From Acidimicrobiia bacterium (GTDB taxonomy: Bacteria; Actinomycetota; Acidimicrobiia; Spongiisociales; UBA11373), in contig CP129495.1 in assembly GCA_030584185.1 (NCBI GenBank), positions 1,533,469 through 1,597,468 on the forward strand: a stretch of 64,000 nt of DNA. Direction: 5' to 3'. The position numbers were made by a program, and so were the translations under genes. A model generated the notes under the pieces. It saw nothing but the letters and a program-made list of their open reading frames with translations, was not told the DNA's origin and ran no database searches. Below are positions 26,552-27,936 of the stretch, piece after piece. Every line of letters begins with the position of its first letter. Positions within the stretch are counted from its first letter, which is position 1.

Positions 26552-27274
26552 TCAGGGGCCGATCACCGGTCCGGTCGGCTCGAAGTCCTCGTCGGTGGGG
26601 GTGGCGTACTCGAGGAGCTCCATCACCCGGGTCGTGCCGCCTCCCGACAGGCTGGTCTCCATGAGCAAGGTGAACCCGAGTTGGTCGTCGATGCACTGGC
26701 GGTAGGTCTCGGTGGTGCCGGGCGGCGTGTACTGCCAGCAGATTCCGGTTCGTCCGGCGATGGTTCCGTCCATCGCCACAAGTGAGGAGCCGGGGACGTC
26801 GTTGCCGGTCGACAAGAGGAGGAAGGAGGCGGCGAACGGCCCCAACAGCCCCTGGATCAGCGCATCGGCGGTCACTCCCGCGAGGACGATGCATTGACCG
26901 TCCTCACACATCATCGTCTCCTCACCGTTGGAGATGATCTTCGCCTCCCCGGTGATGATGGAGCTTCGGATGGGGTCGGATGTGGGGTCTTGGGCCATGA
27001 CCACCGTCTCGGGGTCCTCGTCCTGATCACCCATCAGGTAGGTGAGTCTCAGCGGCGTGGAGGCGTACACGTCGAGCAGCGCCTGGATGTCGCCGCCAAC
27101 CGTTCCAGAGCCGCCTGCCGCCGTGGTGTCGGTCGCGCCGCCTGCCGCCGTGGTGGCGGTGCCGCTGTCTGCGGCCGTCGTAGCCGCCCCGGCGCCGGTC
27201 GTGGTGGTGGCGTCGTCGTCTCCGCAAGCGGCGACGACGAGGACTAGGGCGAGGGCGATCGAGAAGCGGCGCAT
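26552..27274 (-). CDS. Secreted lipoprotein of unknown function (240 aa)
   Basis: Type II signal peptide: MRRFSIALALVLVVAAC with lipobox VAAC, Cys17 to be lipidated. A 40-residue linker rich in Thr, Ala and Gly follows, then a domain of about 185 residues resembling actinobacterial LppX/LprG-like or 'hypothetical lipoprotein' folds only in general style; its paired cysteines (MCEDGQC, ICWQY, QCID) may form disulfides. A ggagtg ribosome binding site precedes the ATG. The Thr linker resembles the one in the AMIN-like protein at 6 kb. Confidence 0.75.
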   Translation of the reverse strand: MRRFSIALALVLVVAACGDDDATTTTGAGAATTAADSGTATTAAGGATDTTAAGGSGTVGGDIQALLDVYASTPLRLTYLMGDQDEDPETVVMAQDPTSDPIRSSIITGEAKIISNGEETMMCEDGQCIVLAGVTADALIQGLLGPFAASFLLLSTGNDVPGSSLVAMDGTIAGRTGICWQYTPPGTTETYRQCIDDQLGFTLLMETSLSGGGTTRVMELLEYATPTDEDFEPTGPVIGP

Positions 27275-27434: not shown

Positions 27435-27511
27435 GGGCCGGTAGCTCAACCAGGCAGAGCAGCGGGCTTTTAACCCGAAGGTTGTGGGTTCGATTCCCAC
27501 CCGGCCCACCA
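27435..27511 (+). tRNA. tRNA-Lys (TTT), CCA encoded
   Basis: Acceptor GGGCCGG pairs with CCGGCCC, discriminator A and genomic CCA (27509-27511). Anticodon loop CTTTTAA on a GCGG/CCCG-based stem gives TTT; the outer stem pair is G-A. T-arm GTGGGTTCGATTCCCAC is perfect. Unlike the other three tRNAs it encodes CCA. A TACGCT box at 27401-27406 may be its -10. Its 3' half is repeated downstream (see the tandem repeat). Confidence 0.93.
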
Positions 27512-27528
27512 GCGGTTTCGCTCCTCTC

Positions 27529-27555
27529 GGCCCGATCCCTGCCCGGGATCGGGCC
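27529..27555 (+). terminator. tRNA-Lys terminator hairpin (copy 1)
   Basis: Perfect 11-bp stem ggcccgatccc / gggatcgggcc with a 5-nt loop, 18 nt after the tRNA CCA. No T-run. Confidence 0.65.
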
Positions 27556-27696
27556 TCGTCACAGGTGTCGTCATCGAGGGTTGCGTCCCGGCGTTTGGTG
27601 TTCGGGTCGCCGCTTGGGGTCGTTGTGGGGGGCTGTGGCGGGGCGATAGAAGACGGTTCGATTCCCACCCGGCCCACCAGCGGTTTCGCTCCTCTC

Positions 27697-27723
27697 GGCC
27701 CGATCCCTGCCCGGGATCGGGCC
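27697..27723 (+). terminator. Duplicate of the tRNA-Lys hairpin (copy 2)
   Basis: Identical hairpin 168 bp downstream, carried by the second repeat unit. Confidence 0.55.
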
Positions 27724-27852
27724 TCGTCACAGGTGTCGTCATCGAGGGTTGCGTCCCGGCGTTTGGTGTTCGGGTCGCCGCTTGGGGTCGTTGTGGGGGG
27801 CTGTGGCGGGGCGATAGAAGACGGTTCGATTCCCACCCGGCCCACTTCGTTC

Positions 27853-27871
27853 CTCCCCCCGCAGGGGGGAG
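27853..27871. terminator. C/G-run hairpin between the repeat and the 27937 gene
   Basis: ctcccccc / ggggggag with a gca loop, inside a poly-C/poly-G tract. It could terminate the minus-strand gene ending at 27937 or simply be low-complexity sequence. Confidence 0.35.
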
Positions 27872-27936
27872 TACCCCGGAGGGGGGAGGGGGGCAGACCC
27901 TGACCGACCTTTGTCGCGTGTTGCCACCGCGCTCCG

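Follow-up and report, generated by a model that had tools for sequence, protein, structure and literature searches.

What is a tRNA 3′ end that recurs behind its own gene at exact intervals, and how does it come to be there? The locus lies in a 64,000-nt stretch of an Acidimicrobiia genome (contig CP129495.1, positions 1,533,469 to 1,597,468), hereafter the window, in which an intact tRNA-Lys gene with an encoded CCA (anticodon TTT; 27435-27511, forward strand; ARAGORN, and Rfam RF00005 with 71 bits) leads into a tandem array. Tandem Repeats Finder placed the array at 27487-27845 with a period of 168, 2.1 copies, 100% matches, and a score of 718. The exact 168-bp repeat reported in the preliminary description was confirmed: two identical units of 168 bp (27487-27654 and 27655-27822) are followed by a 23-bp third copy (27823-27845).

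The array has the layout tRNA-R-X-R-X-R on the forward strand, where R is the 23-nt tRNA end GGTTCGATTCCCACCCGGCCCAC, found at 27487, 27655, and 27823, and X is a 145-bp non-coding spacer. R1 (27487-27509) is the tRNA-Lys gene's own 3′ end, running from the GG at the T-stem/T-loop border to C74; R2 (27655-27677) is an exact second copy, and R3 (27823-27845) is a terminal partial copy of 23 nt that forms the right end of the array. The two spacers, X1 (27510-27654) and X2 (27678-27822), are identical. Each opens with a strong GC hairpin (27529-27555 in X1 and 27697-27723 in X2), continues as spacer, and terminates in ..GAAGACGG, so that a GAAGAC box (27649-27654 and 27817-27822) forms the end of X and abuts the GGTTCGA of the next tRNA-end copy. 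R starts with the last two bases (GG) of the 5′ T-stem strand, and the duplicates are 3′ ends only. Since nothing 5′ of these two bases is repeated, the copies cannot form a T-stem; of the T-arm that had been described as repeated, the loop and the 3′ part are therefore present and the stem is not.

A terminator had likewise been described as part of the repeat. The element in question is the hairpin, which is strong and terminator-like but carries no T-run, and no consensus terminator was found in the tRNA-Lys array. The X1 hairpin shows one compensatory pair change relative to the homologous tRNA-Tyr unit described below, and consensus folding of the unit supported this first hairpin only, with few compensatory changes. 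The tRNA-Lys unit folded no better than shuffled sequences (z 0.14), and the tRNA-Tyr unit folded better than its shuffles (z -2.9). We rejected the idea that the unit as a whole has a conserved RNA fold, as the first hairpin alone was supported and the tRNA-Lys unit resembled its shuffles. Protein coding was also rejected, since open frames are the default in a unit of 168 bp, which is divisible by 3; no reading frame is conserved across units, the tRNA-Tyr unit of 166 bp not being divisible by 3, and no plausible gene was seen. An Rfam search of the array with E values up to 1 returned the tRNA and a weak, below-cut-off plastid match over the tRNA itself, and nothing else.

All 45 tRNA genes of this genome (G000, a single contig, C1, of 2.21 Mb) were examined with their flanks, revealing sister arrays. 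The tRNA-Tyr(GTA) gene is followed by 5.1 copies of a 166-bp unit (L035, 3929-4780) and the tRNA-Pro(GGG) gene by 4.3 copies of a 130-bp unit, and the tRNA-Ala(GGC) gene heads a mixed array that an 18.8-kb island now interrupts. The sister arrays vary internally, with SNPs and a 1-bp deletion. The spacers of the Lys and Tyr arrays and the spacer "X" of the Ala array are homologous, with identities of 0.76-0.78 and z scores of 10.5-12.7 against shuffles (X1 and the tRNA-Tyr spacer are 77% identical, z 10.9); the tRNA-Pro spacer is unrelated to them. The tRNA ends are local: the Lys array carries the Lys end and the Tyr array carries the Tyr end.

An AAGACGG box directly before TTCRA is present in both the Lys and the Tyr array; it also occurs in the second Y unit of the Ala array and at an orphan tRNA-end copy (C1:1431813). 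The combination AAGACGG|TTCRANTCC occurs nine times in this genome, eight of them in arrays, and four times elsewhere in the order (137 other genomes), where the sole real occurrence is in the tRNA-Ser array of G002. The box was rejected as a genome-wide element in the order, the matches in G053, G107, and G029 falling in coding sequence. The orphan copy, on the minus strand, is tRNA-Met-like, is preceded by GGCAAGACGG, and has no tRNA within 4 kb; it is perhaps the end of a decayed element.

Similar arrays occur in relatives. Of 131 tRNAs surveyed across the order, 11 had a copy of their own 3′ end within 600 bp downstream (Lys in 3 of 29 relatives, Tyr in 2 of 29, Met in 3 of 28, and 3 of 45 genes in the own genome). 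Reversed or reverse-complemented queries gave 0/131 and upstream flanks 1/131, and the downstream copies are thus far beyond chance. Full tRNA scans of G010 and G015, in which the query was anchored 3′ of the T-loop and the left edge left free, found downstream copies behind 10 of 45 tRNA genes in G010, which belongs to the same family, and behind 2 of 45 in G015, against 0/135 for the reversed control over three genomes. The spacings in G010 are 171 bp (Met), 171 (Lys-CTT), 147 (Gly), 169 (Lys-TTT), 171 (Ala), 169 (Pro-TGG), 137 (Pro-GGG), 172 (Arg), 213 (Leu-TAA), and 168 (Leu-CAA), seven of the ten lying at 168-172 bp. The spacers of this genome include one family behind Met, Lys-TTT, Arg, and Leu-CAA (z 7-13) and another behind Lys-CTT, Pro-TGG, and Leu-TAA (z 2.7-7.3); the Ser and Tyr spacers of G002 are also related (z 6.2). 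Together with the Lys, Tyr, and Ala arrays of the window's genome, these homologies indicate that three genomes each have a spacer family distributed among different tRNAs, with tRNA ends that are local. The bodies of the tRNA-Pro(GGG) arrays in G000 and G010 are unrelated.

The presence of an array is volatile between relatives. The preliminary description had raised the case of the same fixed array in distant relatives, and the comparison gave the opposite picture: the tRNA-Lys array is present in G009, G010, and G040 and is missing in most relatives. The G009 array (C25; L107, 2130-2850) contains a DUF559 endonuclease-like gene between two spacer copies that are 85% alike. In G025 (C70; L339) and G038 (C177; L338), the repeated part of 67-bp arrays behind tRNA-Met begins as early as the anticodon stem, and it includes so much of the tRNA that ARAGORN calls false tRNA genes within the array. 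In many relatives a tRNA-Tyr gene lies about 350 bp from a contig end. We rejected the reading of these ends as assembly breaks caused by arrays, because Thr-Met tRNAs are present downstream; no tRNA-end copies were found behind these tRNA-Tyr genes, and a duplicated tuf gene would be the likelier cause. When the tRNA-Tyr array pattern was searched, among the matches listed (80 loci) isolated tRNA-Tyr 3′-end copies were seen in 27 and none in the rest, several of which are tandem full tRNA-Tyr genes.

The edges of the duplicated piece fall at tRNA landmarks, the T-loop and the mature 3′ end, and its usual extent is from GG|TTCRA to C74. Measured from TTC, the left edge lies at -2/-3 in the Lys and Tyr arrays of this genome, Ser and Tyr of G002, Lys of G009, most arrays of G010, and Thr of G048. 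It lies at -14, in the 3′ strand of the anticodon stem, in the Met arrays of G015, G025, and G038 and the Lys array of G040; the Pro(GGG) arrays have it at -10. The right edge is C74 in most arrays. Such a pattern is not expected of random breakpoints, with the qualification that arrays in one genome are not independent and that the T-loop, as a universal motif, is usable as microhomology.

The tyrT repeats of Escherichia coli have long been known and little understood, and were until now an oddity of one locus. In strain K-12, 3.1 copies of a 178-bp unit stand behind tyrV; the unit starts with AATCCTTCCCCCACCACCA, the tRNA-Tyr 3′ end, and goes by the names of tyrT repeats and RtT RNA (rttR, Rfam RF00391). 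The array is variable over 5,426 complete E. coli genomes, with 0 to 4 RtT units among the examples listed. RF00391 matches in three further enteric genomes are located behind the tRNAs for Tyr, Pro, Lys, Ser, and Arg; the local 3′ end is nearly always duplicated downstream, mostly at 131-182 bp, and the duplicated pieces begin at or 3′ of A58. The tRNA-Lys array shares with this system the tandem units behind a tRNA, the tRNA's own 3′ end in each unit, and the terminal partial unit, and in both the Enterobacteriaceae and the present lineage related units stand behind several tRNAs, each duplicating the local 3′ end. In contrast, the duplication begins at A58 in K-12 tyrT and at G52/G53 here, and the spacer and GC content are unlike; neither a sequence match nor a covariance-model match to RF00391 was found in the tRNA-Lys array. 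The architecture is thus of the tyrT/RtT kind without sequence similarity. RtT has been described as an RNA that is set free from the transcripts of tyrT and other tRNAs, with a reported effect on the stringent response (PMC4986893, PMC2965389).

A family of X spacers therefore stands behind different tRNA genes of one genome, with nearly identical units and an R that is nearly always local. We propose, at slightly less than an even chance, that a portable tRNA trailer cassette is copied between tRNA genes via the universal T-loop motif and is multiplied by unequal recombination. In the R-X-R-X-R array, R is the own 3′ end (G52 to C74), and X, of ~145 bp, would be the portable cassette. DNA synthesis or repair at tRNA A would switch at the mature 3′ end into the cassette of tRNA B, copy X, and return to tRNA A at the GGTTCRA motif following X. 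Such a switch back at the T-loop would necessarily duplicate the recipient's own 3′ end, and the direct repeats so formed would allow expansion and contraction of units by unequal recombination. We infer that X is a tRNA trailer or terminator, and by analogy with RtT it may release a small RNA. Two arrays speak against cassette copying: the Pro array, with its left edge at -10 and its unrelated body, could be a plain duplication, and the Ala array holds a foreign R, that of tRNA-Met, which better fits cassette integration.

The Ala array links integration to these repeats. Its order is the tRNA, R(Ala)-Y, R(Met), the island, R(f)-X, R(Ala)-Y, and R(Ala′). The island of ~18.8 kb (C1, about 578,000-596,840; L104, L105) is situated at the tRNA-Met end copy and encodes a large serine recombinase (C1:595146-596969; PF00239, PF07508, PF13408), a TraG-like ATPase, and type I restriction-modification genes, the last identified by sequence features and not by family search; its ATPase-helicase pair may be Gabija-like. 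A collinear homolog in G008 (C7:1749-21180; 82-87% over long matches) is situated in the tRNA-Met gene itself, which its recombinase gene (83% protein identity) abuts. Comparison of the junctions of G000, G008, G012, and G003 placed the crossover within GGCCCAC, with constant element sides CAGACACG on the left and GGTTCGCGTTCYRTCCNGTYAGGCCCAC on the right. The left R(Met) in the Ala array matches the 3′ end of the genome's own tRNA-Met exactly over 25 nt. The junction sequences support, in this one case, an R(Met) that was resident in the Ala array and was used by the island as attB; at this one locus, a spare tRNA end appears to have been usable as an attachment site by an integrative element, sparing the tRNA gene. 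Behind the tRNA-Met of G003 lies an integrase-less 100-bp unit with the attR-type end GGTTCGCGTTCYRTCCNGTYAGGCCCAC, and in G012 a related unit lies between two such right-type ends, adjoining a broken serine integrase, which suggests accretion of integrase-less units at tRNA-Met; in G025 this end closes the 67-bp array. A second large serine recombinase gene (C1:279086-280255) lies near tRNA-Leu(GAG) (280486), possibly in another island, and a transposase-like helix-turn-helix gene (L312) begins right after the tRNA-Met at C1:470765.

These integration events raise a rival account, in which each R-X-R is a non-autonomous integrative element or deleted remnant with attL and attR at the tRNA 3′ end, accreted in tandem by site-specific integration. 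Such cis-mobilizable elements (CIMEs) and their tandem accretion at tRNA genes have been described (PMC5704250), and the arrays share with them integrase-less DNA between direct repeats of a tRNA 3′ end (here the 23-bp, attL/attR-like repeats at 27487, 27655, and 27823), the tandem arrangement, and a full island that uses an array copy as its attachment site. The account gains from the common sites of arrays and islands (the Ala-array island and its G008 homolog in tRNA-Met), from the recurrence of GGTTCGCGTTCYRTCCNGTYAGGCCCAC in tRNA-Met-type units of G003, G012 (twice), and G025, from left edges quantised at -2/-3 or -14, and from the DUF559 gene in the G009 unit. However, X measures merely 145 bp and, except in one G009 unit, has no cargo; no related autonomous element was found for the Lys/Tyr spacer, whose ends are by inspection unlike the G000/G008 island ends (only the G003/G012 tRNA-Met units share an attR-type end); and no recombinase gene, integrase and resolvase included, lies within 90 kb of the Lys or Tyr array. 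Moreover, both Rs are local nearly everywhere. Simple att-site integration of a circle that brings in a donor tRNA end would be expected to place this end at one border of the unit, and only the Ala array has a foreign end. AICEs at tRNA 3′ ends can have multiple attL copies (PMC3218068) and so resemble the arrays in having a series of direct repeats that begins in the tRNA 3′ end, but they are tens of kilobases long with integrase genes; tRNA-targeting serine recombinases are known but rare (PMC3218068). The array integration suggested in the preliminary description thus applies to the Ala-array island and in appearance to G003 and G012, but hardly to tRNA-Lys, and we place the CIME-like account second, as rather unlikely. 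Template switching and integration may nevertheless both contribute, and the T-loop edge could be an integrase crossover.

A plain, chance tandem duplication of a tRNA 3′ end with its trailer, which slippage or unequal crossing-over then amplified without movement between genes, would explain the identical units within an array, the unrelated bodies of the Pro arrays of G000 and G010, and the variable copy number in E. coli. A unit so formed derives from local sequence only, and we consider this account improbable, since homologous spacers stand at different tRNAs in three genomes, among them the Lys, Tyr, and Ala arrays here, and edges fall at fixed tRNA landmarks in many independent arrays. 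Recurrent slippage, named earlier as a possible cause, fails on its own for the same reason: with homologous spacers at different tRNAs, it probably changes copy number only. Selection for a small-RNA or terminator array, whose trailer regulates or terminates and whose tRNA-end copies are decoys for tRNA processing or sRNA targets, agrees with the conserved position of the hairpin right after the tRNA, the reported release and effect of RtT (PMC4986893, PMC2965389), and the folding of the tRNA-Tyr unit. The volatile presence of arrays, the shuffle-like folding of the Lys unit with its few compensatory changes, and the Rfam result make this quite improbable. As for an artefact of metagenome assembly, which the identity of the Lys units had brought to mind, the one-contig genome, the variants inside sister arrays, and the same architecture in independent genomes, including complete E. 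coli chromosomes, render it highly improbable. Closest to the data among the earlier suggestions is a minimal satellite-like element, in the sense that a spacer of ~145 bp forms a dispersed family behind several tRNAs of one genome.

This study adds to the tyrT/RtT picture a spread over many tRNAs in a second lineage, fixed edges, and an island that appears to have landed in an array copy. Since the same architecture recurs without sequence similarity in an unrelated lineage, at up to 10 of 45 tRNA genes, the origin of the repeats becomes testable by strain comparison. We suggest, tentatively and with more doubt than confidence, a general and so far unrecognised class of portable tRNA-trailer cassettes, present in two or more distant bacterial lineages and spread by T-loop copying, of which RtT would be one branch and whose spare ends would be decoy sites that divert integrating islands from essential tRNA genes. 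Routine use of array copies as attachment sites would affect how genomic islands reach tRNA loci, and the annotation of attL and attR beside a tRNA gene would have to take into account tRNA-end copies that were already there.

Other repeats occur near the tRNA-Lys array. Right after it, at 27846-27900 of the window, lies a GC-rich imperfect palindrome (CCTCCCCCCGCAGGGG..CCCCGGAGGGGGGAGG) that recurs many times in this genome and its relatives and is a dispersed REP-like repeat. At 27110-27212, a degenerate 27-bp tandem repeat lies in a putative lipoprotein gene (26552-27274, minus strand), where it encodes a Thr/Ala-rich segment close to the start.
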